A stretch of DNA of 64,000 nt from Marchantia polymorpha subsp. ruderalis (Eukaryota; Streptophyta; Marchantiopsida; Marchantiales; Marchantiaceae), in NCBI GenBank assembly GCA_037833965.1, contig AP031354.1, forward strand, positions 4,132,001-4,196,000. Direction: 5' to 3'. Each line of letters begins with the position of its first letter. The first letter of the stretch is position 1. The translations under genes and the position numbers were made by a program. Positions 1-34,262 of the stretch are shown here, in pieces. Below the pieces are notes generated by a model that saw only the letters and a list, made by a program, of their open reading frames with translations, made no database searches and had not been told where the DNA came from.

Positions 1-1132
1 TGCGTGCCTTCTGCTTCGGCCGGCTGTATGGCTCGCACAGCGGCCGCGGTCGAATGGGAGCAGAGAGTTCTTGATGCTGCTCCTCTTCGGCCTCTTCCCT
101 CCATCGCCGCTTCCGCGGCACTCGCGCCGCAGGGGTGTGTCTCCCTTCGTCTCTCCGTCTTGATGGGGTAGAAGTCGGTGACTCCTCCGCATCAGTGTCG
201 ACCTCGTTCTCCCGCACATACTTCCCGGGATGGTCGATGGACAATGGCGGAAAATGTTCAAGCTCCGCCGCTGTCAAACAATTCCGCTGTCGATAAAAAT
301 TGATGAGGAAAGGAGAAAGATGGTTTAGAGTTCCCCCCTTCTCCTCAAACGCGTGCTGTCGCATCACTCTGTGCAGGATGCTCGCCCAGTGAATTGGAGT
401 TCCCTCGATGACGCACTCCACAAAAGAGACCTGCCACAATGTGATGTAGCAGGCGCGGTGCGGCTGCAGTAATTGCATCAGCGCCGCGGACAAAGTCCGG
501 CGAAATCGATCTTTGTAATCACGGGTCCTGTACCCATTCTTGGTAGACCTCCCGGTCTTGAACAGCTCCACAAATTGCGCTTCTTCTTGCTTGGTCACCT
601 TGATGCTCTCGCTGTCGAAAAGGAGATGCCCTGGCATGCCAGCACATCTTCCCAACGCCTGCGCCCAATCTTGGACTGTCCACCGGTCAACATGCGGACG
701 CAATCCGCGCGAGGGTGGTCCCTGTGGCTCTAGCCACTCGCGCACCATATTCGCGCAGATGTAATTCCATCCCCATAGCAAGAAATCGAGCTTTCTTGCT
801 ATTAAGCGCTCTTCGAAAGCGCGCAGCCCGTTCTGCGGCAGGCGAAGTGGCACCATCCGCAATCTGCTCGGTCTCGTCATTGCGTTCCTGGGGTTCGCTC
901 GCCCGCTCATTCTACTTCCGCACTGTCCGCGTTTCTTTCTCTCTCGGCAAACTCTAATCGCTCTCAATTCCAAATCACGCGCACTCACTTCTCCCTTAAT
1001 CAACAAGAAATCTCCTGAGCGACGACGACGAGAATGTTCCGCAGCCAGCAGATGGATGCGCGCAGCGCGCACAAGAGATTGGAATCGCGAATTCAAGAAT
1101 GGGACGCTCTCCGCCGCCCGGTCGAAGGTCAT
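1..1132 (-). CDS. U3-encoded LTR protein, 3' LTR copy, partial
   Basis: N-terminal part of the large ORF carried in the LTR, running off the window. The start is the ATG at 1132 (MTFD), equivalent to 12357 in the 5' LTR. A second possible start is the Met of the NAMT motif further in, which matches the NAMS Met of the family-B homologue. The frame is open to base 1. At 659-661 it reads CAG, where the 5' LTR copy has a stop, so this copy is the better one. The conserved block has the motifs LLWGWNY and WTVQDWAQALGRC. The function is unknown. In the genomic RNA this ORF would be the third one, downstream of pol. Confidence 0.7.
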   Translation of the reverse strand, partial: MTFDRAAESVPFLNSRFQSLVRAARIHLLAAEHSRRRRSGDFLLIKGEVSARDLELRAIRVCRERKKRGQCGSRMSGRANPRNAMTRPSRLRMVPLRLPQNGLRAFEERLIARKLDFLLWGWNYICANMVREWLEPQGPPSRGLRPHVDRWTVQDWAQALGRCAGMPGHLLFDSESIKVTKQEEAQFVELFKTGRSTKNGYRTRDYKDRFRRTLSAALMQLLQPHRACYITLWQVSFVECVIEGTPIHWASILHRVMRQHAFEEKGGTLNHLSPFLINFYRQRNCLTAAELEHFPPLSIDHPGKYVRENEVDTDAEESPTSTPSRRRDEGRHTPAARVPRKRRWREEAEEEQHQELSAPIRPRPLCEPYSRPKQKAR

Positions 1133-2378
1133 GGTCGTCTCTTGGTCGTGAAGAACGTCTCACTTGATGGCCGCGCCGGCTGTACGCTGGAACGGTCTTC
1201 GCTCTCACGCGCGGCTTCACGCTCCGCCGTCGTCGATTAAACTCTCACGCTCGAATTGGCGGATTTGAACTCCGCGAGCGTGTCACCCTCCGGACATGGG
1301 GGCGTAGCGCCGAAGGCGAGTTTTCCGCCTTCCGCGGTACACTTGTTCGTACCGCCCCTCGGCCAATCTCCTTCTGCCTTGACGCGTGTGTCCGCATGTC
1401 GGACGAAAATTCAACTCCTGCCTGTGCGCAGGCAGGGGCCTCGGCGGATTCTCCGCCGGCGCGGAACTTGAACATTCTCCTGTGCACAGGCGTTCTCCTG
1501 TGCGCAGGCGAATTCCGTCCGCGGCGCTGCGCTGGCGCGGAAGGCGTTGACCGTGGTCAGCCGTCTCCGTCCAGTCTGTCCGTTCCTTGTCTCTCCGTCG
1601 GCGCTTCCGCCGCCGCAACTCCGTCCGTCCAAGAGCGCATCCACCCGTGCCGTCCGCACGGTCCGTACCTATTGGATTACTCTGGCGGCTCTTCCGACGT
1701 ACGCTGCGCTGCGCTGGCGCGGAAGGCACCGTACACTTTCTACCTCACAAGGCGCATTTCTAGGGCCCAAGGCGGATTTCCCGCCGACGCCGAAGTGCCT
1801 GTGCACAGGCGAACGCCTGTGCGTAGGCGGACTTCGCGCCTTCCCTAACCCTACTTCGCCTGCGCACAGGCGAACGCCTTCGTCCGCGCATAGGACAAAA
1901 CTTGAATCCCCCTTCCGCGTAGGCGGAATTCGCGCCGGTGGCGAAATCCTTCCGCCGGGGGCGACCGCCTCCGTTTCTTCCAGTAGCGATAACTCCCTAA
2001 GTCCTCGTCCGTTCCAAGCGTTCTTGGGCTCGTTGGAATCAGCGCGTCGAGCTCTTTCCAACGGGATCCTAACTTGGTCAAGGCGCCCGAGGGTTGACCT
2101 AATTACGGGGGTTTCCCTACCGCCGCGGACGCAACCTCCGAAGGCGGGTTTTGCGCCTTGCGCCGTAGAGATCCTAACTGCGGAGCTCGCAGGGAGGGTG
2201 GTGCCTGCCCTTACTGCGGCACCCCAAATCCCAAATTCTACAAGATCCCTTGAGAATCCCCGCGATCTTCCGGATTCACTCTGTTTTGATGTACCGAAGG
2301 CTATTTACAATGCTGCCAGGGTACAGTTTTCCAAAAATGTTTTAATTTCCTCAAAATTGCCAAAAGTGGGGTACCACA
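1..2378 (-). repeat. 3' LTR of A1 (partial, U3 part)
   Basis: Bases 1-2378 repeat 11226-13603 at a constant offset of 11225, with about six substitutions. Read on the minus strand the LTR starts TGTGGTACCCCAC at 2378, directly after the polypurine tract. Only the U3 leader and the first part of the U3 ORF are inside the window. Confidence 0.95.
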
Positions 2379-2380
2379 TG

Positions 2381-2391
2381 CCCCCCTCCTC
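2381..2391 (-). other. Polypurine tract of A1
   Basis: On the minus strand GAGGAGGGGGG lies two bases before the TGTGG start of the 3' LTR and just after the pol stop. This is the expected plus-strand primer site. The A2 copy has the same tract at 55996-56006. Confidence 0.85.
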
Positions 2392-2415
2392 AATTGTGAG
2401 CGCCCACGCGAACAC

Positions 2416-5256
2416 TCACATGTGGTATTTCTTCAACCGCCACCCGTTCACTCGGGTGCCTAACAAATCGCCGGCCAGGTCCGCAAGTTGGATGGATCCA
2501 TTCGGGAAAACTTCGACAACCCTGTAAGGTCCCATCCACCTTAGGTGCAGTTTGCCTGGGAATCTGGCATGCCTACTGTCGTAGAGCAATGCCAAATCAC
2601 CCGCCCGCAGGAGTACCGGTTTGATCTTTTTATCGTATCTCTCCTTTCGGCGGAGCTGGATTTTCCTGGTGCGATCTTCGGCGTCTCTTCTCCGCTCATC
2701 CAGCAGCATGACCTCCTGTAACCTGTAGAGCTGACTCTCCTCTGCGCCCATCCTCTGCAAATCCATCGTTCGATGGGTGGGTACTTCAAATTCGATTGGA
2801 AGGATCGGGTGTTGCCCATACACCAGAAAGTATGGTGTCTGTTTGGTCGTGATCTTCTCAGCTGTGCGATACGCCCATAGAGCGGCTGCTAGCTTCGTAT
2901 CCCAGTCGTGAGCGTGATTCACCGTGACCTTGAGTAGTATTTTACACAGCAGTCCATTGGACTTCTCCGTCAGTCCATTTGCCTTGGGGTTGTATGGAGT
3001 AGTCTTCCGGTGCTTGATGTGGAAATACCGTGTCAGGTCTTCGATGATCTGATTCAGAAAATGCGTGCCCCGGTCGCTGACTAGTTCTAAGGGACATCCA
3101 TAGCGTGTGATGATTGACTCGAACAAGAATGCTGCCACTGTGGCAGCATCATCCCTTCTGGTGGCTCTGGCCTCTACCATTTTGGTGGCGTAGTCCGTTG
3201 CTACCAGAATGTAGCGCCTTCGTGTACTTCTAGTCACTGGTTGTATCGGCCCTACAAAGTCAATACCCCACTTTTCGAAAGGTGCTAGAGGCATGATGGG
3301 AGTCAGGGGCCATCGTGTTGTAGGCGTCGGTCTCCCCGTCCTCTGGCAACTGTCGCACTTGCGGATGTAATCGAGAACATCCTTAAACATGGTCGGCCAC
3401 CAATACCCCGCATTTAGGATCTTTGTGACCGTGTTCCTGGTGGCATAGTGTCCACCCGCCTCCTCTGTGTGCATCGCACTCACTATTCTTGGTACTTCTG
3501 ATTCCTCATGGCATCTGCATAAGCGCTCATCCGCCATCTTCTTGAACAAAACCCCCTGCTGGAGTTGATACGGGCCTGCCTTATGAATAAAGACAGTTCG
3601 CTGTTCCAAATCCATGCCCTCGGGGCACTGGAGGGTTAACAGATATCGATACAGGTCGGCATAGCGGGACTCATGTCCTGCAGACAACTGAAATAACTCT
3701 TCATCTGGAAAATCGTCCACCAATTCCTCCTCTGTCGGCTGGGTCCATAATCGGGACAAGTAATCCGCATTTTCGTGGTGCACCCCTTTCCTGGTCTGGA
3801 TTGTGTAGGTGAACTCTTGTAGTAACAACACCCACCTGGCGATTCGACCGGATAGGTCAGCTTTCTTGACTAGGTGTTGCAATGCGTAGTGGTCCACATG
3901 GAACACAAACTCGTAGCAGATTAGGTAGTGACGGAACTTTTTACAGGAGTACACCATCCCCAACGCTTCTCTCTCCGTCGTGGTGTACTTCCGCTCTGCT
4001 AGAGACAGCTGTCGGCTCGCGAAGTAGATCGGGTAGTCCTTTTTGTTGTCATCCTTTTGACTCAGTACTACACCGATGGCGAATGCCGAAGTGTCAACGT
4101 AAACATGGAATGGTCGATTCCAGTCTGGACTCCTTAGTACGGGAGCAGTCGTGAGTTTCGCTTTCAAAGCTTCAAATGCTGTCTGCTGGTTCGCACCCCA
4201 AGCATAAGGCTCGTCCTTCTTCAACAACTTGGTCAGGTCCGCCGCCAGTATTGCATACATGTGTATGAATCTTCGATAGTAGCCCACATGACCCAGGAAT
4301 GCTCGCAGCTCTCTTAGATTCGTGGGTGGCTCAAGCTCGAGTATAACCTTGACCTTCTCGATGTCCACCGCAATGCCTTCTGCCGAGACCCGATGACCCA
4401 ACAAGATCCCACTAGTCATGAAGAAAAAGCACTTCTCGGGATGCAGCGATAAACTGCTCTCTCTACATTTATCGAAGGTCTGCTTCAAGTGACTTAGGTG
4501 TTCAGACCGCTTCCCAAAGACACAGAAGTCATCTATGAATATCTCCAGGAACTTCCTCAGTTGTTCCTGAAAGATATTGGTCATCATCCGTTGAAAGGTG
4601 GCAGGCGCGTTGCACAGACCGAAGGGCATCTTGTGGTAGGCGTAAGTTCCCCAGTCGGTTGTGAACGTAGTTTTATCCTTGTCCTGTTCACGGATAGACA
4701 CCTGATTGTAACCTGAGAACCCATCCAGTAAGCTATAACATTCATGTCCTGCGACATGGTCTAGAATGGCATCCGTGAATGGTAACGGGTGATGATCCTT
4801 GCGTGTTGCCGCATTCAACTTCCGGAAATCCTGACACACTCGTATCTTACCCGTCAACTTCTTGGGTACGATAACAATCGGCGACACCCACTCACTGCTG
4901 AGCACAGGATAAATAATACCAGCGCTCAAGTACTTATCTATTTCCTCTTTCACTAGCAAGGAGTACTTTGGGTTGAGGCGATACTAGCGCTGTCGTATGG
5001 GTACTGAGTCGTCCAGTAAATCGATACGGTGCTCCCCATACCGTGCAGGTATCCCCTTCATGTCCTCGATCTTCCAGGCGAAGACGTCGACATAGTGGCT
5101 AAGGAACGCCTGTACTTTCCTTAGCTCGTCTCCTCTCACTGCGCTTGATACCTTCAAGCACTTGCCGGGACTGAGTTGTACTTCATGACAGTCACTAGGG
5201 TCGACAATGCCCTCGGTGTGACTCGTCTCACTCCTTCCCAGTCCCACAGTTAATTG
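2416..5256 (-). pseudogene. pol: pol of A1: RT, RNase H, integrase, one nonsense codon
   Basis: Polymerase region, in the same frame as gag-pro and separated from it only by the UAG at 5257-5259, so it would be made by readthrough. In order: RT with the catalytic FIDD at 4528-4539; RNase H starting with a YVDTSAF motif; an integrase zinc-binding region with the CDSC pair; the DDE core, with D in WGIDF, D in VSDRG and E in GLTEKSNG; and a C-terminal GPY motif (WMGPYRVVEVF) ending in NGWRLKKYHM. No second RNase H and no chromodomain are seen. One in-frame stop interrupts it at 4984-4986, where A2 has CAG, a C-to-T change. The rest is open, so the defect may be recent. It makes the proviral DNA copy and inserts it; it acts in the virus-like particle and nucleus. 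Confidence 0.93.
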
Positions 5257-5259
5257 CTA
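5251..5259 (-). promoter_or_regulatory. Leaky UAG between gag-pro and pol (TAG CAA TTA)
   Basis: The gag-pro stop TAG is followed immediately by CAA TTA, and pol continues in frame. UAG followed by CAR YYA is the tobamovirus-type readthrough context known to work in plants. A2 has the identical nonamer at 47761-47769. Confidence 0.8.
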
Positions 5260-8109
5260 TTCGTCTTCCGGCTGAATAGCTTCCGTCTCTTCTTCTTCTT
5301 CCACCGAACAGCAGGCAACGAATCCCACGAAGTAATCGGATTCGGTACCACTGGAATCCGATCGCGCGGTCGACTCACTGTCCTCGCCCGATGTGTAACC
5401 TGCACTTGTCGATGGGGTCTCTCCTCCGTGCCTGACCCTATTCCAGGGCACCGTAATGGTTTTGGTCGGTTCCGAAGGGTGAGGAAACTTAAGGCGATGT
5501 CTTCGCCAATCACATCTGACTTGTGCACCATATAGCCATGGTCGCCCGAGCAGGACGTCATAGCCCTGCTTCATCATCGGTTGAAGGATGATATACGTCA
5601 ACCGAAAGTCCGCACCCCCGATGGTTGTCTTGACATTGCGCAGCATTCCTGCAGGCATTCTCCGCGTCTGATCCGCTAATCTCAACACACGCTTCGAGGG
5701 TTCGTATTGACTGAACCCCAAGGCTCTCGCTGTATCCTCCGTCATTATGTTGACTCCTGATCCAGAGTCGATTGGCACTCTGCGTACACAACATCCGGCT
5801 ATCTCCACATCGATCTCGGGTGGCCCTTGGTCTTCGCTCTCCACTTGATATACTTGAGAGGATGTGGATGCGCGCGGCTTCCGCGGATGCCGTAGCGAAA
5901 GCATCAACATTCTCCGATACGTCTTATTGTCCTCCAAGAGCTGCTTGAACGTAATGTTCACTTTTCGACTCCCGAGATCTTCAACCAAGTCATAGTGGGC
6001 GCGTTGGGGCGCCGGGGTCGGCGACGCTCCGCGAGGTTCCACGGTGGCTGCCAACTTCGCCCCAAGGGAGGATGTCAGGTCTGGCCGCGGTGGGTCCTTT
6101 TGAGTGCGGATCGCTTCCTGCAACAGGTTGGCTACCTCGTTGCGGATATCCGGAGCATAGTCCCGTTTCAGTAGGCGCACTGGCTCGTCCTCGACTGCTG
6201 CCTGGGGGCGCACTGCTGGTGCCTCCCGCGTAGTCGAAGACTTCCGAGCAGGTCGCGAGTCGGACTTGCTGGATGTCTTCTCCTTTCCTTTTCCCGTCCG
6301 GTCGGCGGTTCTCCGTTCGTGCTTGCGAGTGTCGCGCTCTTGCTCCTTCGATTTCTTGGAACTACGAGTTTCGACCCGTGCGCACATAACCTCTTCAGCC
6401 GGCCATTCTTCGTCTTCGCCATCCCCGTCTGAACCTACTTCGACCTGGTTAACTTGCACGTCCTCCTTGGCAGGAGTGTTCACAAATCGTACCACTGGCC
6501 GAGGGACTGGTGGCTGATCACACTCTGGCGCAGTGTGCCCGACCTTCTTGCAATTGCTACATGTCGGAGCATAATCGTTTCGCCTTTTTGGATGGGGACA
6601 CTGCGGTGAGAAGTGCCCAACTTCCCCGCAATTATAACAAGCTCGCGGTGGCGGTGGGTCAAACGTCCCTGGAGGTGCTCTCCGCCTCACCGGTACCGTA
6701 GTGGCCCGATCCACCGGAATATATCGGGGAACTTGCATTGCTGAAACCGTAGGAGGGGTAGGCACCGACTGGACGGCGTAGGCTGTCTCTTCGCTAGCCT
6801 CTCCATAGTACTGAGGGTGCTCTCCATAGTACTGAGGGTGCTCTCCATAGTACGGTTGCGCCCACTCTACTGCGTTGACTGGGTATGACGGCCGGGTGGT
6901 AAGGCACTCGGTGTTTGCATGTCCCACCGCCCCGCACGTAGTACACCATAAGTTCGCTCGCACTCTCCCGGGTGATTTTCGGCGATCATGCCCGCCTACC
7001 ACTTGAACCTTGAGATCGGCGAAGTCCTTCACAAGGGTCTCCATCTTCGAAGCTATATCTCCCGGCGCTCTGTCCGTAGCCACTCGTCGGATGCCCTTTT
7101 TCTTCGCTGACCCATGCTTCTTCCTCTTCTTCTCCTCCTCCGACGATGAGGTTTCCTCTTCTTCGGATGAAGAACGGTTCTCGTCCGAAGACGATTCCTC
7201 CGATGACGGAGTTGTACCTCTCCGCCGTCTTCGCCCTCCTTTCGGTTTGCGCTCCTTCGACTCCCGTCTCTCTCTCCCTCTTCGGTTGAGAGTGGAAGTT
7301 TCGAAGGCTTCTGCCGATGCAATCACATCCTCAATAGTGTCGCACTTGCTGCGTCGGCAAAAAGTCTCCATCTCCCGAGTTAAACCGGTCACGTACCAAT
7401 CCACAGCTTGTTGTACCGAGAAAGGGGACCCTGGTCCTGTTTTCGGTATTCTGTCGAGGAGGTCCATAAATCTCTCAGTGTAGTCACGCAGACTCTCCTT
7501 CTTCTCTCGCTGCAAATTACGTAACTTCGTCAGAACCCGGCTGTCGTAGCCGAGCTCGCGAAAGCGACGAAGGAACTTCTCCTTCAGCTGGGCCCATGTT
7601 GTCAACCCAGTCGGATCGATGCTCTCGTGATTATACCAACTCCTCGCTTTCTTCCGCAGAAGGCTTGGAAAGATCCGTAGTCGGTCGTCGTCTGCGATCT
7701 CGCGATTGGCAATAGACACCGACTCGAATAACTTGATGTATGAATCTGCATCATCGTCATCCCCACTCCCTTTGTACTTCGGGTAGGAATGTTTAGTAAT
7801 CGGCTGAGGTAGCCGCACATTGGCTTGTCCGTCCGCCATCAGTGTGTCTGTCGACGGTCCTCGGGCGGTCGGTTCTACTTCACTAGGCGGGTCCGTGCAA
7901 GGAATATCTAGTAGAACTGTAAGCACCAAGTTTGGTTCCGAGTCGCCGGGGGTAGGTTCCCCAAGGATGTCGGCCGAACTAGGCTTAGGTACTCTTTTTG
8001 GTGTTTTCTTGGTTTGACGCCGTGTCTCTTCCACGGCCTTCTCTGAATCTCGTCGGAACTTGCGGACAGCTCTAGCACTTAGGTTGCTCCCGCCAGCCCC
8101 AGTCGACAT
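5257..8109 (-). CDS. gag-pro: Gag-protease polyprotein of A1 (950 aa, open)
   Basis: An open reading frame of 950 codons from an ATG 46 bases after the primer site. It has a basic, disordered N-terminus, then a retrotransposon gag domain at about residues 95-250 (marked by WAQLKEKFLRRF). A long Ser/Glu/Lys-rich linker follows. There are three CCHC zinc knuckles near residues 389, 492 and 518 (CTTCGAVGHANTEC, CYNCGEVGHFSPQC, CSNCKKVGHTAPEC), which bind RNA. The aspartic protease lies near residue 780, with the active-site DSG and a later DVLLGRPWL. A tandem YYGEHPQ repeat near residue 430 is one unit longer than in A2. It forms the particle shell and processes the polyprotein. It is the only undamaged gag-pro in the window. 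Confidence 0.95.
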   Translation of the reverse strand: MSTGAGGSNLSARAVRKFRRDSEKAVEETRRQTKKTPKRVPKPSSADILGEPTPGDSEPNLVLTVLLDIPCTDPPSEVEPTARGPSTDTLMADGQANVRLPQPITKHSYPKYKGSGDDDDADSYIKLFESVSIANREIADDDRLRIFPSLLRKKARSWYNHESIDPTGLTTWAQLKEKFLRRFRELGYDSRVLTKLRNLQREKKESLRDYTERFMDLLDRIPKTGPGSPFSVQQAVDWYVTGLTREMETFCRRSKCDTIEDVIASAEAFETSTLNRRGRERRESKERKPKGGRRRRRGTTPSSEESSSDENRSSSEEEETSSSEEEKKRKKHGSAKKKGIRRVATDRAPGDIASKMETLVKDFADLKVQVVGGHDRRKSPGRVRANLWCTTCGAVGHANTECLTTRPSYPVNAVEWAQPYYGEHPQYYGEHPQYYGEASEETAYAVQSVPTPPTVSAMQVPRYIPVDRATTVPVRRRAPPGTFDPPPPRACYNCGEVGHFSPQCPHPKRRNDYAPTCSNCKKVGHTAPECDQPPVPRPVVRFVNTPAKEDVQVNQVEVGSDGDGEDEEWPAEEVMCARVETRSSKKSKEQERDTRKHERRTADRTGKGKEKTSSKSDSRPARKSSTTREAPAVRPQAAVEDEPVRLLKRDYAPDIRNEVANLLQEAIRTQKDPPRPDLTSSLGAKLAATVEPRGASPTPAPQRAHYDLVEDLGSRKVNITFKQLLEDNKTYRRMLMLSLRHPRKPRASTSSQVYQVESEDQGPPEIDVEIAGCCVRRVPIDSGSGVNIMTEDTARALGFSQYEPSKRVLRLADQTRRMPAGMLRNVKTTIGGADFRLTYIILQPMMKQGYDVLLGRPWLYGAQVRCDWRRHRLKFPHPSEPTKTITVPWNRVRHGGETPSTSAGYTSGEDSESTARSDSSGTESDYFVGFVACCSVEEEEETEAIQPEDE

Positions 8110-8155: not shown

Positions 8156-8173
8156 TCCCCGGCAGCGGCGCCA
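8156..8173 (-). other. Primer binding site, tRNA-Asp type
   Basis: On the minus strand TGGCGCCGCTGCCGGGGA lies 22 bases after the LTR end. It matches the complement of the plant tRNA-Asp 3' end with one mismatch. The 22-base gap between LTR and PBS is longer than usual and holds an AAGAAG/CTTCTT inverted repeat. A2 has the same arrangement at 44843-44882. Confidence 0.85.
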
Positions 8174-8279
8174 AAAAGAAGTTGTCGGCTTCTTATGTAA
8201 TAACCCACTAAAGGCTAAAACTGCAATATAGTGGTAGAAAGGTCGAACCCACAGGGACAGAGGAACACACAGGGTATAA

Positions 8280-9110
8280 AGTGTCACGTTTTAACAGACT
8301 ATTGAGGAGTTTGAATTCTCAGGCAACTGTCACTCCCAGAAATACTGCAAGTGTCCACTCGGAGCGCACTCGGAGGTCGCACAGTGCAGCGTAACACACA
8401 CACACACACACACCTGAAACTACAGAAACACAACCCAGAGATCCGTTAGGACCTCTACTTCAAGATTTCAGGGGGAAAGTCTCTCAAGAGTACACTCGGC
8501 AAAGCTGCGGGCAGTGACTTCCAACTCCGGCTTTTACAACACTTCCACTAGCTTGCTGCTAGTGTAGGAAACCCGGTTTGGACTGCCTACTTCGGATCGA
8601 AGTCACTCCTACGCGGTGAACAACACTCTCAACTCACAAAACACGCAGAGAACACAGGTCCGCACTGAAGGACTCACTGTGAAACATTCCAGTACACAAC
8701 AACAGTCTATTGAAGAGTTTGAATTCTCATGCACTTGTCATTCCCAGAAATACTACAGGGGTTACCCTCAAGGCACCTGCTGCAGCGTAACCTGAATTTA
8801 CAACCAAGGCTTACACGAAGTAGCAAAACTTCACTTTGGCATTCAGGGGAAAAAATCCCAAGGAGTACAATCAGAAAGAAACACTCGAAGGTGTAGGGGC
8901 GAAACTGTTCAAGTATCTAACTAGTCACTGGCTCTGAGCATCGGCAGTCACCCGCAGGTGCAGATCCGAACTACTCAAGTCTCTAACCAATGCACTAGCT
9001 CTGAACATTCGGCCGAAGGCCTTCAGCTACAAAATGCGGAACGCTAAGTTGTAACTCCTCGTGCGTGGTGACAGAACTCAAGGACACAAACACGCAAAGG
9101 AAATGGGTTC
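8280..9110 (-). repeat. Diverged tandem duplication inside R/U5 (~405-bp period)
   Basis: The motif ATTTCTGGGARTGACA followed by an AGAATTCAAACTC-type stretch occurs twice about 405 bases apart (near 8300-8345 and 8705-8750, minus strand). Other matching pairs flank it. The same duplication is present in A3, A4, A2 and A5. A CA/GT microsatellite of varying length sits in the promoter-distal unit (8395-8414 here). Confidence 0.65.
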
Positions 9111-9139
9111 CTGATCTGCACTTCTGATGGGAAAGAACC

Positions 9140-9168
9140 CCAGGCAAAACGCCTGGAACTATTTTATA
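9140..9168 (-). promoter_or_regulatory. LTR core promoter: TATA box plus palindrome
   Basis: On the minus strand TATAAA (9163-9168) is followed after a few bases by the palindrome CCAGGC-GTTTT-GCCTGG (9156-9140). This is the likely promoter for genomic RNA. It lies downstream of the LTR ORF, which places that ORF in U3. Other copies have CAAGGC...GCCTTG, a compensated change. Confidence 0.65.
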
Positions 9169-9204
9169 CCTTCTAAGTCCTAACTAGCACTACACTGCAC
9201 TACG

Positions 9205-12200
9205 CTACACGCCTGCACGGAACCACGCAACACTACACTCCGCGGATCCTGTACTACGTCTCCTGCGCGGCCGACTGCCGCGCACTAACTCCCTACCCTG
9301 CCACTCGTCCGCTCGACTACGCAGTCCCAACCGCTGCAACGCCGCGGTCACCTCCCCCTCGAGGGCGGACATGGTATCCTGTGCCTTCGACAGAAAGGCC
9401 TCGAGCTTCTTCGCTACCTTCCGCCGACTCCTACTGTCGCCTGACAACAACCCGGCTGCGCGCAATTCAAACTCACGCAGTGTGAGTTTCTCCTGCGCCT
9501 TCACTTCCCAGTGGGCGTAGCCCTTGAGACAGTGGGCGACTCGCCTCGCCGTCTCCACCTTCGTGCGATCCGCCTCCTTCCTGCGATCCTCTTCAATGGT
9601 CACTAATTGCGATTCGGCTTCAGCACGTTGCGCCCTCAATTCGCCACACTCTGACTGCAGACTGCGGATTAATTCTTCATCCGCCTGCCGTGCGAGCTGA
9701 CATTGTTCCAACAACCGCGTCTGTCGCACGAGCTCCTCTGACAAAATCCGATTCTCGGCCTGCTCAGAGTTGAGTGCTTCCTTGACCTTCACCTGCTCCT
9801 TGGTGAGCTCGCCCAGTTTCTCATCCTTCATCTTCTCGGAGTGCTTGTAGAATTTCTGATTAAGCTTGTACTGTCCCCACAAGCACTCATGCTTCTCCTT
9901 CAAGTCCCTCAACTCCTGGTCCACTCTAGCTAATAGCTTGCTGGTGTGGACTTTAGTGCGAGTCCGCCTGCGCACTAACTCGATGTAAGATCCCGGCTGG
10001 AGTGGGTCGGCGTATTTATCGACCTTGCGATCCAAGTACCGCAGCAACGGAATCACCTGCTCAGAGAGCGCCGCCGCCCGCGCTCCAACAATTTCCTCCT
10101 CCTCCTCCTCGGTGTCTTCTGCTCCTGACATTTCTTCCGTGGAGCCTCCGTCCTCATCATCCGAGTGGAGAATTTCAGTCGCCATTGATTGCGTCGGCGA
10201 CTGCCCCGAGTGGGGCTGCACGTCCTCGACGTGTGCTGCCTGCGAAGGCACGGCTGCAGCCTCGCTGCTCGTCGCCAAAATGTCTAAGGCGGAAGGCGAA
10301 TGTATCCGAGCGGCATCCCCGTCGCTCGCTGGTTGATTGCCCACCGCATTCTCTCTGTCGCCGTCGTCCGTCGCCGAAGGCGATCGAGCGGAGGGTGGCT
10401 GCGCGGGGTTGGATTGCGCATCGCGCATCGAGCTTTCATCCCGCGGACAGTCACTCCGCTCCACCGTCTGCTGCTCCCTCGATCGGTCCGTGGGGGCTGT
10501 GCCCGGCCCGTGCGCAGGCGCATTTGCCGGCGCCTTGTCCGCCGCAGGCGTAGCGCCGCGGACATCTATCGCCGAAGGCGACATGGCCGGGGGCCGCACG
10601 CCCGATGTTCCTTGGCCTATAGGCCCTACCGCCGAAGGCGCATCTATCGGCGTACTTCCCGCCGATGGTGCGGCCTCCGCACGCTCTCTGCTCGTATCTC
10701 CTCGGCTCGAAGGCCCTGGCGCCGAAGGCGCGAATTGCGGCGCGTGGTGCGCCGGTGGGTCTGGCCCCGAGGGCCGATGTCTCGTAGGCGGTTCTTCCGC
10801 CGGCTCCTTCCCCTTCCTACGTTGGAACGGGGGTGATTCTTGCCTGTGCACTGGCGGCACGTGCGGAGGTGTTCTGTGCATAGGTGACCTGTGCACAGGC
10901 GACCTGTGCACAGGCGAGCGCCTGTGCACAGGCGGACTGCTCCTTCCCACGCGTATGCGTAGATCCACGTCCACTTGTGTTCGCCGGTCCGCGGAGGCTC
11001 GTCCGTCCGCGGAGGTTTGCCTGTGCGCAAACGGAACATCTGTCCGCATCGCACGTGGTAACTCCGGAGGCCCTTGGCCCGTAGGCGGCCTCTCTCCCGA
11101 CGAGGTTGCAGCGTGGCCCGCTGCTCCTGCGGTCGTCCGCGCTTCCTCTCGTCTCTCTGGCGACGCACTTCCTATCTCCGTCGCAATCGTCGCCGTGTCT
11201 GCACTGTCAGCTGGCAACACCAGTCTGCGTGCCTTCTGCTTCGGCCGGCTGTATGGCTCGCACAGCGGCCGCGGTCGAATGGGAGCAGAGAGTTCTTGAT
11301 GCTGCTCCTCTTCGGCCTCTTCCCTCCATCGCCGCTTCCGCGGCACTCGCGCCGCAGGGGTGTGTCTCCCTTCATCCCTCCGTCTTGATGGGGTAGAAGT
11401 CGGTGACTCCTCCGCATCAGTATCGACCTCGTTCTCCCGCACATACTTCCCGGGATGGTCGATGGACAATGGCGGAAAATGTTCAAGCTCCGCCGCTGTC
11501 AAACAATTCCGCTGTCGATAAAAATTGATGAGGAAAGGAGAAAGATGGTTTAGAGTTCCCCCCTTCTCCTCAAACGCGTGCTGTCGCATCACCCTGTGCA
11601 GGATGCTCGCCCAGTGAATTGGAGTTCCCTCGATGACGCACTCCACAAAAGAGACCTGCCACAATGTGATGTAGCAGGCGCGGTGCGGCTGCAGTAATTG
11701 CATCAGCGCCGCGGACAAAGTCCGGCGAAATCGATCTTTGTAATCACGGGTCCTGTACCCATTCTTGGTAGACCTCCCGGTCTTGAACAGCTCCACAAAT
11801 TGCGCTTCTTCTTGCTTGGTCACCTTGATGCTCTCGCTGTCGAAAAGGAGATGCCCTGGCATGCCAGCACATCTTCCCAACGCCTACGCCCAATCTTGGA
11901 CTGTCCACCGGTCAACATGCGGACGCAATCCGCGCGAGGGTGGTCCCTGTGGCTCTAGCCACTCGCGCACCATATTCGCGCAGATGTAATTCCATCCCCA
12001 TAGCAAGAAATCGAGCTTTCTTGCTATTAAGCGCTCTTCGAAAGCGCGCAGCCCGTTCTGCGGCAGGCGAAGTGGCACCATCCGCAATCTGCTCGGTCTC
12101 GTCATTGCGTTCCTGGGGTTCGCTCGCCCGCTCATTCTACTTCCGCACTGTCCGCGTTTCTTTCTCTCTCGGCAAACTCTAATCGCTCTCAATTCCAAAT

Positions 12201-12357
12201 CACGCGCACTCACTTCTCCCTTAATCAACAAGAAATCTCCTGAGCGACGACGACGAGAATGTTCCGCAGCCAGCAGATGGATGCGCGCAGCGCGCACAAG
12301 AGATTGGAATCGCGAATTCAAGAATGGGACGCTCTCCGCCGCCCGGTCGAAGGTCAT
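9205..12357 (-). pseudogene. U3-encoded LTR protein, A1 5' LTR copy, one nonsense codon
   Basis: Frame of about 1050 codons starting at MTFD (12357). The first 330 residues are conserved across families and rich in tryptophan (LLWGWNY, WTVQDWAQ, TLWQVSFVE, HWASILHRVMRQ, GGTLNHLSPFLINFYR). The middle is disordered, rich in Arg, Pro, Ser and Ala, with HRRSPVHRSPVHR-like repeats encoded by DNA palindromes. Then comes an acidic run (TEEEEEE) before a conserved segment (VIPLLRYLDRKVDKYADP), and a C-terminal coiled coil of about 250 residues with a basic tail. A stop at 11884-11886 replaces CAG; the 3' LTR still has CAG. No known enzyme motif is recognised. A structural or capsid-accessory role is possible but unproven. 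Confidence 0.75.
10888..10932. repeat. Cluster of three CCTGTGCACAGG palindromes in the LTR ORF
   Basis: The perfect 12-bp palindrome CCTGTGCACAGG occurs at 10888-10899, 10903-10914 and 10921-10932, with steps of 15 and 18 bases that keep the frame. It encodes PVHR repeats. The same palindrome recurs at least fifteen times in the window, in both coding and leader parts of the LTRs. Confidence 0.8.
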
Positions 12358-13603
12358 GGTCGTCTCTTGGTCGTGAAGAACGTCTCACTTGATGGCCGCG
12401 CCGGCTGTACGCTGGAACGGTCTTCGCTCTCACGCGCGGCTTCACGCTCCGCCGTCGTCGATTAAACTCTCACGCTCGAATTGGCGGATTTGAACTCCGC
12501 GAGCGTGTCACCCTCCGGACATGGGGGCGTAGCGCCGAAGGCGAGTTTTCCGCCTTGCGCGGTACACTTGTTCGTACCGCCCCTCGGCCAATCTCCTTCT
12601 GCCTTGACGCGTGTGTCCGCATGTCGGACGAAAATTCAACTCCTGCCTGTGCGCAGGCAGGGGCCTCGGCGGATTCTCCGCCGGCGCGGAACTTGAACAT
12701 TCTCCTGTGCACAGGCGTTCTCCTGTGCGCAGGCGAATTCCGTCCGCGGCGCTGCGCTGGCGCGGAAGGCGTTGACCGTGGTCAGCCGTCTCCGTCCAGT
12801 CTGTCCGTTCCTTGTCTCTCCGTCGGCGCTTCCGCCGCCGCAACTCCGTCCGTCCAAGAGCGCATCCACCCGTGCCGTCCGCACGGTCCGTACCTATTGG
12901 ATTACTCTGGCGGCTCTTCCGACGTACGCTGCGCTGCGCTGGCGCGGAAGGCACCGTACACTTTCTACCTCACAAGGCGCATTTCTAGGGCCCAAGGCGG
13001 ATTTCCCGCCGACGCCGAAGTGCCTGTGCACAGGCGAACGCCTGTGCGTAGGCGGACTTCGCGCCTTCCCTAACCCTACTTCGCCTGCGCACAGGCGAAC
13101 GCCTTCGTCCGCGCATAGGACAAAACTTGAATCCCCCTTCCGCGTAGGCGGAATTCGCGCCGGTGGCGAAATCCTTCCGCCGGGGGCGACCGCCTCCGTT
13201 TCTTCCAGTAGCGATAACTCCCTAAGTCCTCGTCCGTTCCAAGCGTTCTTGGGCTCGTTGGAATCAGCGCGTCGAGCTCTTTCCAACGGGATCCTAACTT
13301 GGTCAAGGCGCCCGAGGGTTGACCTAATTACGGGGGTTTCCCTACCGCCGCGGACGCAACCTCCGAAGGCGGGTTTTGCGCCTTGCGCCGTAGAGATCCT
13401 AACTGCGGAGCTCGCAGGGAGGGTGGTGCCTGCCCTTACTGCGGCACCCCAAATCCCAAATTCTACAAGATCCCTTGAGAATCCCCGCGATCTTCCGGAT
13501 TCACTCTGTTTTGATGTACCGAAGGCTATTTACAATGCTGCCAGGGTACAGTTTTCCAAAAATGTTTTAATTTCCTCAAAATTGCCAAAAGTGGGGTACC
13601 ACA

Positions 13604-15996
13604 AGCTCGAACTCCCGGAGTGTAATCCTCTCTTGAGCTGCCACCTCCCAATGGGCGTATCCTTTTAGACAACGAGTCACCTGTGCCGCCAACTCTCCTC
13701 GCGCCCTGCAGCTGCTCTCCACCTCGGCCAGCTGCATTTCTAATCCCGCACGTTGTGCCCTCAAATCCGAGCACTCGGATTGCAAGTTGCACAACAACTC
13801 CTCATCCTCCTTGCGGGCTCTTTGACTTTCTTCTAAGGCGCGCGTCTGGCGCGCAAGCTCGGCTGCTAGGACTTGGTTCTGTCTCCGCTCCTCCTGCAAT
13901 TCCGACTCGATCTTTGCCCGTATTAGTTCGGCATCCGCCTGACTTTTCGTCGCCGCATCCTCCTTCTGCTGCTGCAAGGCTTGGTATAGCTTCTGGGTGA
14001 CCGCCAGGTGTTGTCGGAGGGCGGTGTTCCTATCCACATATACTTGGCAACTAGAGGCCCACTTTGCCACCTTGCTCCTCGTCCTTCGCCTGATAGTCTC
14101 CACATAAGACTGCGGTTTTAAGGCACTTGCGTATTTGGATGTCTTGCGATCCAGATATCGCAGGAGTGGAACTATCTGTTCGCACAGCACCCCTGTTGGC
14201 GTTTTCTGCACCGAATCCGCTTCCTGCTCTTCCGAGCTCGTATCATCCTCAGTCTCGAGGATTTCAGTCGCCACCGAATCCCTTGGCGACTCCCTGGAAC
14301 TGTGGCGCGCAGCAGCTTCCGCTGCGACTGCTGCTCCACTGCCTGCTAAAATATCCAGGGCAGTGGGAGATCCCACTGCTTGAGCCCCTGTTCCGGCTCG
14401 ATCTTCGGTTTGTGAAGGGGTCGACGCCGCAGTGACTTTTGTCACTCTTGAACCGCCCGCTTCTGCTGCCTGTCCTTCCGGCGCAATCTGCGCGGAAGGT
14501 GTCCTTGCTGAAGGTGCGTCCGCCGAAGGCGTCCGCACACTGGTCGTTGGCCCCATCCGTCTCGCAGTCGGCGGATCCGGCTGACTCTCTGTTGTCCGAC
14601 TCACAGTCGGCCGACCAGCAGTTGTCCGACTGGGAGTCGGATACACCCTGCGCGTCTTGACTCCACTTGGCCTGCTTGCTGGTGGCGTTCTTCCAGAAGT
14701 GCCTTCCGCCGAAGACGACCCTCTGAGGATTGTTGGCTCGTCAGCCAAACTCTCTTCTGCTTCCGGCCTGCTGTCCGGTTCAACGCGCCGTTCAGTTGGC
14801 CTTCCTTCCGCTTGTCGACCTTCAGTCATCCGACTCGCAGTCGGCCGGCTGTCAGTCCGTCCATCTCCTCCCGAAGGCCGTGGTGCCTTCTGTGCAGAGG
14901 TATCTGCCGTCTTCCCTAGAATCTGAGCGATTATCTCTTCCTGTGTGAGATTCCGCCGGGTCGGAGTTCGCCCGGTCTCCTCAGTACCAGTTGGCATTTT
15001 GCGTGCCCTCTGTTTTGGTCGACTGTGAGGCTCGGGGGTGGGCCGACCACGAGTCGGCGCAGCTGGCACTTCCGGCTGCCTGTCCTCAGGTCTCTCATCC
15101 CACTTCCGCTTTCGCGGAATGCGCTCACTTTGACGTTCTTCTGCTGCTCTTGCTGGAGCCGGAGCCGGAGGCGTACTGGCAGGTTCCTCGTCCGGATCCG
15201 TGTCTACTTCGGCCTCCCTCGAATATCTACCTGGATAAGTCCGGGTCAGCTGCGGAAACCGTGTTTTCTCAGCATTTGTCAAACATCCCATCGCCCGGTA
15301 AAACACGATTAAGTAAGGCGATAGATGATTGAGGGTTCCTCCCTTCTCTTCTTGCGCATGTTGGCGCGTCACCTTCCACAGGAGCCGTGCCCAATGCACC
15401 GGAGCTCCTGACAACACTAGCTCCACAAACTCTACCTGCCAACCATGCATGTAAGCGGTCTTGGTCGGCTGCAATATCTGCAGCAATGCCGTCGCGACAT
15501 TTCTCCGCAATCGATCCTTGTAATCCCGTGTCCGGAAACCGTTCTTGGGATGTCTGGCAACTTTGAAGAGCTCATTGTAAGAGACTTCTTCCTCCTGGGA
15601 CACCTTCACGCTATCGGCCTCGAAGAGGAGATCCCCTTCCTCGCCGGCACACCTGCCCAACACCTGCGCCCAATTGCAAATGTCCCATCTCTTTGGGTGT
15701 GGGCGGAATCCGCGAGAAGGCTTGTGTCTCTCCTGCAGATACTCGCGCACCATCTCCGGACATGTCCAGTTCCACCCCCATAGGAGAAAATCGAGCTTCA
15801 GCCTCAGCAGCACATCTTGAAATGCGCGTAGACCGATCTGCGGCACCCTGAGTGGAGACACTCGCAGCTGGGGAACCTTCGACATTGCGTTGCCTGCACA
15901 CACACAAACGTTCTCCCTTTCGCTCGCTCTCTCACAATCGCCACTGCGTGTCGGCCACTCAAGCACTGACTGCTCACTCTCTCTGCGCTCGTTCAA
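13604..15996 (-). pseudogene. U3-encoded LTR protein of family B, cut by A1 insertion
   Basis: Family-B version of the LTR protein, open from the ATG at 15996 (MNERRE), with an alternative Met at 15885 (MSKV) that aligns with the conserved NAMT/NAMS Met of family A. It shares LDFLLWGWNW, RDYKDRLRR and GGTLNHLSPYLIVFYR with family A. The middle differs: Thr/Arg/Pro-rich, with palindrome-coded repeats. The coiled coil follows. The frame ends in sequence from the A1 LTR just after TLREFEL, so the last 100 or so residues are separated from it. Apart from the insertion no stop is seen. Confidence 0.85.
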
Positions 15997-17243
15997 GATC
16001 GCTACTCACAATTCTTTCAAGGTCCGCCAAGATCCTTGCGCAACTCGTCTCCGCACTCTCTACTCTCACTGCAGGTCGCTCCGCCCTTGCGCGTAATCTT
16101 GGAAACTGGAAATCGCAAAGTCAAGAATGAGAGAATGAGACTGGAGCGCAGTCTTTTCTTCTCCGATTTCAAGAACGTCCAACGTTCTTACTGGTTGCAA
16201 CGTACGCAGCCGGCTATACGGCTTAACGGTTCGCCCTTTGCATGCGCGAATTCACGTCTCCGCACTGCGCGCATTCGCATGCTTAAACGTTGAATTCTCC
16301 CGCCGGCGCCACCTTCCGGACTCGAGTCCGCTGCAGGGTATACGTCGGCCCTGTTGTCTTTTCCTAACCCGTCCCTCACCGGAGGCGTGTCGCCGCTGGT
16401 GCGTTCATTATCCGTCGGCGCCTTGCTGGAGGCGCACATCCAGTCGGGGCGAATTACGCCGGCGCGCAATCGTACCGCCTATTTTGTCCTTTATGCCTCG
16501 TCCGTTGCTGCCGGCGCATATCCGTCAGCGCAACTCATGCCAGCGCATCCGGCCGTCAGCGCCACGTCGGAGGCGTACATCCGACCGGCGCTTTCCTTCC
16601 ATGAACAGCCGCCAAAGGCGCTTCCGACTCTGAGTTGGTTTCCTCCTATGAGCGCGTGATTCCACCAAAGGCGCATCGCCGAGGGCGTACGGGAATCCTT
16701 TCCGGCTGTGAACCCTAGCGCGAACGGCGCATGTCCGGCTACGAGTTTTCCGACGCTCATAACTTCTCCATTCCTGATCCATCTCCGACGCTCTTGGACT
16801 CGTTAGAACGAGCGTCCCGAGCTCTTTCTAATGCAACTTCAACCAACTGGATCTACCGTGTGTCTCGATTGTTATGAAGGTTTCCCTTTCCGCGCTAGCG
16901 GCGCTCCGCCGAAGGCGCACTCATGGTCGGATGCCTTTAGAGGTCCGGGCCCTTCTCCTGACGTCTTTAGCAAAACCTCCTCCTGAGGTGTCTGCGCCGG
17001 AAGCGTAGCTTCCTTATACGCTAGAGGCGCGTGAGTAGAGACACCTTAGAAAAGGAGCTTTTGCCGAAGGCGCCGAAGACGTTGGCGTTGGTACATCCGA
17101 CTACGTGATTCTTTGTGCCCTCGTGACGATCTCATCAATCCACTCTATTTAGCGTACCCTTCTCTAGCTACAAACACTGCTTTGGTACTAGTTTTCTAAA
17201 ATTGTTTAAATTCTGCAAAAAAAACAAAAAGTGTGTTACCACA
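13604..17243 (-). mobile_element. Family-B LTR B1, truncated by A1
   Basis: On the minus strand it starts TGTGGTAACACAC at 17243 and matches the complete family-B LTR B2 (33078-37943) up to the point where A1 inserted (13603/13604). The remaining part would be left of the window. It sits in the C-terminal coding part of a family-A LTR ORF (A3), entering at GTGGC (17244-17248). Confidence 0.9.
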
Positions 17244-27935: not shown

Positions 27936-28900
27936 TGTAATAACCCACTAAAGGCTAAAACTGCAATATAGTGGTAGAGAGGTCGAACCCACAGGGACAG
28001 AGGAACACACAGGGTACAAAGTGTCACGTTTAACAGACTATTGAGGAGTTTGAATTCTCAGGCGATTGTCACTCCTAGAAATACTGCAAGTGTCCACTCG
28101 AAGCGCACTCGGAGGTCGCACAGTGCAGCGTAACACACACACACACACCTGAAACTACAGAAACACAACCCAGAGATCCGTTAGGACCTCTACTCAAGAT
28201 TTCAGGGGGAAAGTCTCTCGCGAGCACACCCAGCGAAGCTGCGGGTAGTGACTTCCAACTCCGGCTTTTACAACACTTCCACTAGCTTGCTGCTAGCGTA
28301 GGAAACCCGGTTTGGACTGCCTACTTCGGATCGAAGTCACTCATACGCGGTGAACAACACTCTCAACTCACAAAACGCGCAGAGAACACAGGTCCGCGCT
28401 GAAGGACTCACTGAGAAACATTCCAGTAACACAATAACAGTCTATTGAAGAGTTTGAATTCTCAGGCACTTGTCATTCCCAGAAATACTACAGGGGTTAC
28501 GCTCAAGGCACCTGTTGCAGCGTAACCTGAATTTACAACCAAGGCGTACACGAAGTAGCAAAACTTCACTTTGGCATTTAGGGGAAAAATCCCAAAGGAG
28601 TACAATCAGGAACAGACACTCGAAGGTGTAGAGGCGAAACTATTCAAGTATCTAACTAGTCACTGGCTCTGAGCATCAGCAATCACCCGCAGGTGTAGAT
28701 CCGAACTACTCAAGTCTCTAACCAATGTACTAGCTCTAAACATTCGGCCGAAGACCTTCAGCTACAAAATGCGGAACGCTAAGTTGTAACTCCTCATGCG
28801 TGGTGACAGAACTCAAGGGCACAAACACGCAAAGGAAATGGGTTCATGATCTGCACTTCCGAAATTGGGAAAGAACCCCAGGCAAAACGCCTGGAACTAT

Positions 28901-28906
28901 TTTATA
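28901..28906 (-). promoter_or_regulatory. LTR TATA box (A4)
   Basis: TATAAA on the minus strand, followed by the CCAGGC...GCCTGG palindrome, equivalent to A1 9140-9168. Confidence 0.6.
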
Positions 28907-28941
28907 CCTTCTAAGTCCTAACTAGCACTACACTCACTACG

Positions 28942-31900: not shown

Positions 31901-32049
31901 CTTACTTCTCCCTCAATCACCAAGAAATCCTCAGCGCGGCGATGTCGAGAAGGCTTAGCAGCCAGCAGATGGACGCGCGCAGCTCGCACTAGAGAATGGA
32001 ATCGCGAATTCCAGAATGGGACGCTCTCCGCCGCCCGGTCGAAGGTCAT
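28942..32049 (-). pseudogene. U3-encoded LTR protein, A4 copy, three nonsense codons
   Basis: The family-A LTR protein read from the ATG at 32049 to 28942, without a frameshift. In-frame stops lie at 31504-31506 (CAG to TAG), 31303-31305 (TGG to TAG in IHW) and 30847-30849 (GAG to TAG). The second is shared with A2 (41458-41460). The coiled coil and basic tail are otherwise preserved. Confidence 0.85.
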
Positions 32050-33072
32050 GGTCAGCTCTTGCTCGTGGAGGACGTCTCAATTGATGGCCGCGCCGGCTCT
32101 ACGCTGAAACGGTCTCCGCTCTCACGCGCGGCTTCACGCTCCGCCGTCGCCGATTAAACTCTCACGCTCGAATTGGCGGATTTGAACTCCGCGAGCGTAC
32201 TACACCGCGGACATGGGTGCGCAGCGCCGAAGGCGAGTTTTCCGCCTTGCGCGGTACACTCGTCCGTACCGCTCCTCAGCCAATCCCCTTCTGCCTCGAC
32301 GCGTGTGTCCACATGTCGGACAAAAGTTCAACTCCCGCCTGCGCGCAGGCAAACTCCTCGGCAGATTCTCCGCCGGCGCGGAACTTCATCCTCCTGTGCA
32401 CAGGCGCTCGCCTGTGCGCAGGCGAATTCCGTCCGCGGCGACGCGCTGGCGCGGAAGGCGTTGACCGCGGTCAACCGTCTCCGTCCAGACTGTCCGTTCC
32501 TTGTCTCTTCGTCGGCGCTTTCGCCGCCGCAACTCCGTCCGTCCAAGAGCGCATCCATCCGTCCCGTCCGTACGGTCCGTACGGATTTTACTATTCTGGC
32601 GGCTCCTTGCTCGTCCGCGGCGCTACGCTGGCGCAGAAGGCGCCGTACACTTTCTACCTCACAAGGCGCATTTCTAGGGCCCAAGGCGGATTTCCCGCCG
32701 ACGCCGAAGCGCTTGTGCACAGGCGGATGCCTGTGCGTAGGCGAACTTCGCGCCTACCTCAAACCCTATTTCGCCTGTGCACAGGCGAACTTCCTTCGTC
32801 CGCGCATAGGACAAAACTTCTCCGCCTGTGCGCAGGCGAAGAGTTGAGTATCTTACAACCTGCATAACTCCCGGAGTCCTTATCCGCTGTTGGCGTTCTT
32901 GGGCTCGTTGGAATCAGTGCGTCGAACTCTTTCCAACGAGGCCCTAACTAGGTCAAGGCGTCCGGGGGTTGACCTAAATATGAAGGATTTCCCTACCGCC
33001 GCGGACGCAGCTCCGAAGGCGGGTTTTGCGCCTTGCGCCGTAGGGATCCTAACTGCAGAGCTCGCAGGGAGG

Positions 33073-33077
33073 GTGGT
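33073..33077. repeat. Target-site duplication GTGGT of B2 (left)
   Basis: GTGGT here and at 37944-37948 flank B2 exactly. The uninterrupted family-A LTR has one copy (GGGTGGTGCC). Confidence 0.93.
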
Positions 33078-34262
33078 TGTGGTAACACACTTTTTGTTTT
33101 TTTGCAGAATTTAAACAATTTTAGAAAACTAGTACCAAAGCAGTGTTTGTAGCTAGAGAAGGGTACGCTAAATAGAGTGGATTGATGAGATCGTCACGAG
33201 GGCACAAAGAATCACGTAGTCGGATGTACCAACGCCAACGTCTTCGGCGCCTTCGGCAAAAGCTCCTTTTTGAGGTGTCTCTACTCACGCGCCTCTAGCG
33301 TATAAGGAAGCTACGCTTCCGGCGCAGACACCTCAGGAGGAGGTTTTGCTAAAGACGTCAGGAGAAGGGCCCGGACCTCTAAAGGCATCCGACCATGAGT
33401 GCGCCTTCGGCAAAGCGCCGCTAGCGCGGAAAGGGAAAACCTTCATAACAATCGGAATACACGGTAGATCCAGTTGGTTGAAGTTGCCTTAGAAAGAGCG
33501 CGGGACGCTCGTTCTAACGAGTCAAAGAGCGTTGGAGATGGATCAGGAATGGAGAAGTTATGAGCGTCGGAAAACTCGTAGCCGGACATGCGCCGTTCGC
33601 GCTAGGGTTCACAGCCGGAAAGGATTCCCGGACGCCCTCGGCGATGCGCCTTCGGTGGAATCACGCGCTCATAGGAGGAAACCCACTCAGAGTCGGAAGC
33701 GCCTTTGGCGACGGTCCATGGAAGGAAAGCGCCGGTCGGATGTACGTCTCCGACGTGGCGCTGACAGTCGGATGCGCTGGCATGAGTTGCGCTGGTGGAT
33801 ATGCGCCGGCAGCAACGGACGAGGCATAAAGGACAAAATAGGCGGTACGACTGCGCGCCGGCGTAATTCGATCCGACTGGATGTGCGCCTCCAGCAAGGC
33901 GCCGACGGATAATGAACGCACCAGCGGCGACACGCCTCCGGAGAAGGGCGGGTTAGGAAAAGACAACAGGGTCGACGTATACCCTGCAGCGGACTCGCGT
34001 CCGGAAGGTGGCGGCGGCGGGAGAATTCAACGTTTAAGCATGCGAATGCGCGCAATGCGGAGACGTGAATTCGCGCATGCAAAGGGCGAACCGTTAAGCC
34101 GTATAGCCGGCTGCGTACGTTGCAACCAGTAAGAACGTTGGACGTTCTTGAAATCGGAGAAGAAAAGACTGCGCTCCAGTCTCATTCTCTCATTCTTGGC
34201 TTTGCGATTTCCAGTTCCAAGATTACGCGCAAGGGCGGAGCGACCTGCAGTGAGAGTAGAGA

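Follow-up and report, generated by a model that had tools for sequence, protein, structure and literature searches.

The sag gene of mouse mammary tumour virus and the nef gene of lentiviruses lie in or over U3, in sense and past the polypurine tract (PPT), and are copied into both long terminal repeats (LTRs). We describe a plant locus with a similar arrangement, in a 64,000-nucleotide stretch of Marchantia polymorpha subsp. ruderalis (contig AP031354.1, positions 4,132,001 to 4,196,000; the window). Here a retrotransposon that we call element A, of family A, and further families B, C and D, together a very abundant group, carry a long gene (the LTR gene) that lies within the LTR, in sense and downstream of the PPT. 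The likeness to sag and nef consists in these properties, but the element group and the host are unrelated, the gene has about 850-970 codons, and its placement in U3 is one that we infer. We put at about 0.6 the probability that these LTRs each hold a selectively conserved gene past the PPT, likely in U3, whose product, judging from its sequence, is probably a nuclear, coiled-coil protein that would serve the element as an accessory.

Extra genes are familiar from other plant elements, which we compare here through the available parts of the cited papers. The additional open reading frames (ORFs) of Athila, Bagy2, Grande, RIRE2 and Retand are located in the internal region and are of unknown function; most copies keep them, and some of their products are nuclear (PMC7264820). 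The Marchantia gene, too, is an addition whose function is unknown and which most copies retain, but it is found in the LTR, after the PPT and before the primer binding site (PBS), and not between the LTRs as in elements of the Athila, Grande, Retand and Retrosat2 kind. The additional ORF of Retand is antisense and carries PF04195 (TRP28) (PMC7264820), whereas the LTR gene is sense and showed no PF04195 match in 14 proteins; a scan of the whole genome for this family gave nothing over the cut-off, and its best score (E 0.89) was not at a known LTR gene. PF20167 (Transposase_32) was matched by none of the 14 proteins in Pfam, and nowhere in the genome in a scan whose controls were equally silent. 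In rice, Retrosat2, RIRE3 and FRetro3 have an ORF0 of unknown function upstream of the gag-pol ORF, and the LTRs of Retrosat2 and FRetro3 exceed 3.2 kb (PMC3485330). Long LTRs together with an extra ORF are thus a likeness to Retrosat2 and FRetro3, by description, the available text leaving the relation of ORF0 to the LTR unstated.

Ty3/gypsy Tat elements without an additional RNase H occur in both Marchantia genomes studied previously (PMC10508981). Element A resembles them, as Pfam matched no second RNase H domain in the scanned frames, which hold only the native RNase H linked to reverse transcriptase; however, the available part of that paper mentions no LTR gene. A gene within a plant LTR is described in none of the available parts of PMC7264820, PMC11963269, PMC3485330, PMC10508981, PMC6317226 and PMC12885004. 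Additionally, literature searches by title and abstract, which mostly did not extend to subscription papers, returned no plant element with this layout, in agreement with an earlier note on this DNA that knew of none.

Element A is a Ty3/gypsy-type LTR retrotransposon, with gag and protease (PR) followed by reverse transcriptase (RT), RNase H (RH) and integrase (INT), a PBS and a PPT (Table 1). In the surrounding genome (241.5 Mb in nine contigs, the basis of all genome-wide counts), two complete elements combine paired LTRs, PBS and PPT with a matching 5-bp target-site duplication (TSD), namely L012/L011 (AGTGA) and L020/L019 (GAGTG); in both, the PBS leader follows the 5' LTR and the PPT precedes the 3' LTR. 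The window copy is flanked by GGTAC and AGCTC, which form no matching TSD; its neighbours are a family C gene and, on the left, a different pol copy. Because the flanks are unmatched and the left flank lies in another pol, this copy probably arose by recombination. Its 3' LTR, represented in full by L010, is 99.1% identical to the window 5' LTR over 5,411 columns.

The LTR begins after the PPT, the gene follows 0.5 to 1.5 kb further on, and 18 to 37 nt beyond the gene stands a TATAAA or AATAAA box with a palindrome. The LTR ends about 0.5 to 1 kb later, and the PBS comes after another 22 nt, the PBS end having been read in families A and B. Among 11 family A LTRs whose flanks were read, the PPT precedes six and a leader into the PBS follows four. 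One LTR, L018, has both the PPT before it and the PBS leader after it. At C4:14580665-14625838, C2:31345314-31378888 and C8:9861843-9895839, integrase matches or PPT-LTR junctions recur every 11.18-11.20 kb, a spacing that suggests tandem LTR-internal-LTR arrays of whole elements.

The long frame that the earlier note had read in the LTR at 8196..13603 is borne out. From a conserved methionine at LTR position 1499 to a stop that ends at 4399, it spans 966 codons on the sense strand. We scored 13 full-length family A LTRs (the window copy, L010 and eleven more) drawn from the 40 best-scoring matches, a sample that leans to young copies; five other fetched copies were left unscored, two with deletions (L014, L016) and three rearranged or diverged (L024-L026). 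The frame is open in 11 of the 13, with 1,048-1,059 codons from stop to stop and 955-966 residues from the conserved methionine, and all length differences among these eleven are whole codons. The other two bear stops, one in L013 and, in the window copy, a TAG at codon 74, so that the copy on which the earlier note was based does carry the frame, though not intact, while its partner 3' LTR is intact. The roughly 1,000 residues proposed there hold for family A (966 residues), less so for C (851). Its count of five A and two B copies was not reproduced; although naming may differ, we find in the window two A LTRs, one of them reaching past the window edge, four B-like LTRs including a fragment, and two C LTRs, one of which is cut. 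In the middle of one B-copy LTR gene lies an 18/36-bp tandem repeat (window 52247-52378), a likely source of in-frame length variation.

The gene is carried by 5', 3' and solo LTRs, as the note had held for every LTR. Six solo LTRs have a 5-bp TSD: three in the window, L017 (GCTAC), L023 (CGTTG) and one of family D. In three of these TSD-flanked solo LTRs, the C copy at 33078-37943, L017 and L023, the gene is open. Allowing at most one mismatch, the genome holds 1,116 PPT-LTR junctions, 1,302 LTR-PBS junctions, 2,326 copies of a motif from the N-terminal part of the gene (an A/B motif) and 6,029 LTR ends, the last not limited to A and B since the pattern also matches family C at one mismatch; backward-pattern controls gave zero for all four counts. 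Matches of 949 bases had been read as copies sharing R-U5 alone, an idea that was dropped as the full loci held complete LTRs. On C1, a series of LTR-PBS sites (about 2.34-2.47, 2.74-2.88 and 3.10-3.22 Mb) recurs with equal spacing 406 kb on, and less exactly 749-760 kb on, which suggests a large segmental repeat.

Three protein database searches returned 10, 39 and 109 matches; 97 of the 109 are named, all from M. polymorpha, and 12 are nameless. As candidates must share 5-residue words with the query and about 8,000 of them are scored, the search could overlook remote relatives. An annotated protein of M. polymorpha (P0010), whose residues 1-254 match this genome at 100%, marks the distant family D, whose N-terminal block is 45% identical to that of C and 42% to that of A. 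Family D shares the LTR-gene layout, in an LTR of 3.8 kb. The best copy in the genome, a solo LTR at C6:13708915-13712755 (3,841 bp, TSD TAGTT), has its gene broken into several frames, and the part near its end is 79% identical to the corresponding part of the A LTR over 183 columns. Across 30 D loci, that copy included, 18 show homology from the first LTR base onwards, one (L039, with the PPT before it) from base 2, ten from bases 13-37 and one from base 353; the D copies listed mostly contain stops. P0095, one of the 97 named entries, combines an integrase match over residues 1-169 with a match to the LTR-gene profile; its gene model may extend from pol into the 3' LTR.

Evidence of constraint comes from the ratio of non-synonymous to synonymous change (dN/dS), computed by the Nei-Gojobori method with bootstrap 95% ranges and with L010 as the A reference. 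Against the solo LTR B_49736, the N-terminal 230 codons gave 0.094 (0.039-0.184), the middle third 0.45 (0.49 with bootstrap, 0.333-0.723), the C-terminal part 0.24 (0.145-0.388) and the whole gene 0.29 (0.30 with bootstrap, 0.231-0.39). The same A/B comparison of the element's own genes gave 0.128 for gag-PR, 0.104 for RT-RH and 0.116 for INT. By this measure, the N-terminal block is as constrained between A and B as RT-RNase H and integrase. Against other B-like copies the block gave 0.25 (B_39577), 0.09 (B_27936) and 0.115 (L026), and the whole gene 0.43, 0.28 and 0.35 (0.275-0.434 across the three copies); within A, the whole gene gave 0.26 for L017 and 0.23 for L015.

Control frames place these values in context. 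In the N-terminal block, A/B changes fall 9/5/30 on the three codon positions, and out-of-frame controls gave 1.1-3.3 (undefined for L017). An antisense frame of the block is also low (0.16 against B_49736, 0.26 against B_39577), because it mirrors the third-position changes, and it holds five stops. Six frames of a control segment, LTR 1-1219, gave 0.48-1.47, and those near 0.5 hold nine or ten stops. The C-terminal part is at or below control level in three of four comparisons (0.21, 0.24, 0.47; 0.57 for B_39577), and the N-terminal block likewise is at or below it. The values near 1 that the earlier note had named as fatal to its idea are thus not seen in the N- and C-terminal parts, whereas the middle third is indistinguishable from a non-coding frame. 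Recent pairs lack a synonymous excess: comparisons among L019, L021 and L022 show 0 synonymous and 7-10 non-synonymous differences, and L011 and L012, the two LTRs of one element, 0 and 4, as if constraint ends at insertion.

These data also bear on whether the gene is a passenger, a host gene caught in the LTR that has no role for the element. Acquisition of genes by elements is known (PMC7264820), and no known domain was matched in this one; however, an N-terminal constraint between A and B as strong as that on RT and integrase, the same placement in four families, the 2,326 copies of the A/B motif and the lack of any homologue of another kind in the three protein searches, which can miss remote relatives, make a passenger very improbable. 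We give hardly any credence to a chance frame or an artefact of nested insertion. The window is indeed heavily nested, but TSD-bounded LTRs, 966-codon frames at distant loci, the third-position excess and the layout conserved in family D all speak against this.

In the predicted protein, about 230 conserved residues at the N-terminus are followed by a variable middle rich in proline, serine and arginine, and then by a conserved C-terminal part with coiled-coil character. Basic runs occur in the A and C proteins, RKRK/RKRR near residue 256 and RRRR near the end. Pfam scans of 14 LTR-gene proteins found nothing above the cut-off, with several matches to coiled-coil families below it. Two AlphaFold runs on the N-terminal 231 residues (mean pLDDT 43 and 42) yielded an all-helical guess, which was set aside.

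Placement of the gene in U3 depends on what lies past its stop. In the A LTRs, B_49736 and C, TATAAAATAG or TATAAAGTAG (a TATAAA box) stands 34-37 positions beyond it. A palindrome directly follows the box (CCAGGC-GTTTT-GCCTGG in A, CCAAGGC-ATTG-GCCTTGG in D) and is kept in families A to D with matched changes in both arms (window 9140-9168, minus strand; L061, L042 and L049). Between A and B_39577, differences number 13/96 at LTR 4401-4500, 22/997 over 4501-5500 and 28/400 in the start of gag. Divergence between A and the solo LTR at 49736 falls near position 4600, and from 4601 onwards it is lower in two comparisons within A as well. This step, 65-165 nt after the box and close to where the RNA would be expected to start, fits a U3/R border, with R-U5 exchanged or constrained as a unit.

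Several results weigh against the interpretation that we favour. The case for the protein's function is built from sequence features, since neither a fold nor a domain was recognised and every named homologue is from M. polymorpha. The middle third (0.41-0.49, A against B-like copies) is no lower than noise, as a ten-stop frame of LTR 1-1219 gives 0.48-0.53; since non-coding frames reach about 0.5, values near it, such as those of the middle of the gene, are no evidence of constraint. The weakest copy, B_39577, has a C-terminal dN/dS of 0.57 (0.38-0.84). Changes in LTR 1-1219 are also uneven by phase (36/66/43), in a way that fits no long open sense frame and does not fall in the gene's third position. 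Between A and C, dS is saturated (1.7 in the N-terminal block, dN/dS about 0.22) and beyond the reliable range, so that the selection figures cover families A and B. No TATA[AT][AT] motif precedes the ATG of the gene in four LTRs scanned, and a promoter of its own is a guess. The older solo LTRs B_27936 and B_49736 show no divergence step between them, which is consistent with decay after insertion but lends no support. Finally, the family D box is AATAAAGTAG (AATAAA) in L061, L042 and L049, and could be a poly(A) signal.

This last point leads to an alternative in which R, or the leader, is giant: genomic RNA would start near the beginning of the LTR, with the box as the poly(A) signal where R ends and with the gene as both first and last cistron. 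TATAAA can double as a plant poly(A) signal, the AATAAA of L061 lies 18 nt past the gene stop and 535 nt before the LTR end, and the block of low divergence could equally be U5 plus leader. Against this, TATAAAATAG is a textbook plant TATA box, and families A, B and C all retain it at a constant distance of 34-37 positions past the stop. Additionally, a poly(A) signal in the 5' LTR 3-4 kb from the promoter would need read-through every time, and the four scanned LTRs offer no TATA-like box ahead of the gene. We regard a giant R as unlikely, and favour U3 placement over it by about three to one. The earlier note's proposal that the ORF lies in U3, beyond the PPT, stands as to its position inside the LTR and downstream of the PPT; its designation of the box as the genomic-RNA promoter is not proven, given AATAAA in three D copies.

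A gene in U3 could also be expressed as a third cistron, from the 3' end of genomic RNA by splicing, in the manner of env, nef and sag, and solo LTRs would then be silent. Its place after pol in genomic RNA is the same as theirs, and in the A and C copies read a CAG stands 7-8 nt ahead of the ATG. None of the three B copies read retains this CAG, however, and a spliced start was dropped for this reason; we hold this mode of expression to be doubtful.

Under the reading that we prefer, in which the gene lies in U3 and each LTR could express it, the box would be the genomic-RNA promoter, which would put the gene in U3. Reverse transcription would copy the gene from the 3' end of genomic RNA into both LTRs. 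Its own mRNA would start in the first 0.5-1.5 kb of the LTR and terminate within R, which would allow expression from every LTR, solo LTRs included. The basic runs RKRK/RKRR and RRRR suggest a nuclear protein, which may form multimers by way of the coiled coil in its C-terminal part. Grande is reported to have a nuclear accessory protein (PMC7264820), and by analogy the most likely role would be in element expression or integration. As to origin, the earlier note supposed that an ORF in the env position had moved past the PPT. The same layout would result if a new PPT arose ahead of a third ORF already present, since U3 would then take in that ORF within one replication cycle, and this would be simpler than moving the ORF; no intermediate on the way to this layout turned up, though no dedicated search was made.

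Table 1. Features of element A and of other LTR copies in the window (window coordinates).
Feature	Position	Strand	Remarks
3' LTR of element A	1..2378	(-)	runs past window edge; whole in L010; gene intact
PPT TTGAGGAGGGGGGCA	2379..2393	(-)	adjoins 3' LTR directly
RT, RNase H, integrase frame	2416..4983	(-)	Pfam order RVT_1, RT_RNaseH, H2C2, rve
gag-protease frame	5257..8109	(-)	Pfam: Retrotrans_gag, CCHC knuckles, aspartyl protease
PBS TGGCGCCGCTGCCGGGGA	8156..8173	(-)	22 nt beyond 5' LTR end; presumably tRNA-Asp type
5' LTR of element A	8196..13603	(-)	5,408 bp, TGTGG...TTACA; termini TGTGGTACCC...GGTTATTACA; both ends read exactly
Predicted R-U5 (start inferred)	8196..9138	(-)	low A/B divergence block from LTR position 4500-4600
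TATAAAATAG box	9159..9168	(-)	37 positions past LTR-gene stop; predicted genomic-RNA TATA promoter, or possibly poly(A) signal
LTR gene	9205..12105	(-)	967 codons including stop; in-frame TAG at 11884-11886; intact in partner L010
First 1.5 kb of LTR, predicted U3 leader/promoter region	12106..13603	(-)	no long open sense frame spanning whole length
Family C LTR, second copy	13604..17243	(-)	gene frame open as far as start of element A
Family B solo LTR (B_27936)	27936..38123	(-)	TSD GTGAC; split by C solo LTR 33078-37943
Family C solo LTR	33078..37943	(+)	4,866 bp, TSD GTGGT
Family C LTR gene, intact, 851 aa	34434..36989	(+)	inside C solo LTR 33078-37943
Family B 5' LTR (B_39577)	39577..44842	(+)	PBS next at 44865-44882; frame of the gene interrupted, at most 648 codons open in one stretch
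Family B solo LTR (B_49736)	49736..55104	(+)	TSD CCTTT; within pol of B element; gene 51170-54097, two stops

Elsewhere in the window, a gene for a 440-residue F-box protein lies between the nested LTRs (21061-22380, minus strand), and a 92-bp tandem repeat in three copies occupies 62195-62468, with diverged repeats across 61160-63325. An Rfam scan of the window gave no matches.

We lean, with the same confidence as above, towards the view that a clade of plant LTR retrotransposons has lodged a third gene in U3, making every LTR a complete gene in a layout that resembles sag and nef but is independent of retroviruses, and that the genes of solo LTRs could act in trans. The LTR gene accounts for LTRs of 3.8-5.4 kb, and many 'hypothetical proteins' of Marchantia (97 named entries) belong to its family. 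As such a gene would be doubled at each insertion and survives recombination to solo LTRs, a genome fills with gene copies free of gag-pol. If this view is true, the element seeds the genome with thousands of gene copies that outlive it as solo LTRs, and these solo LTRs give a direct test of element proteins acting in trans.

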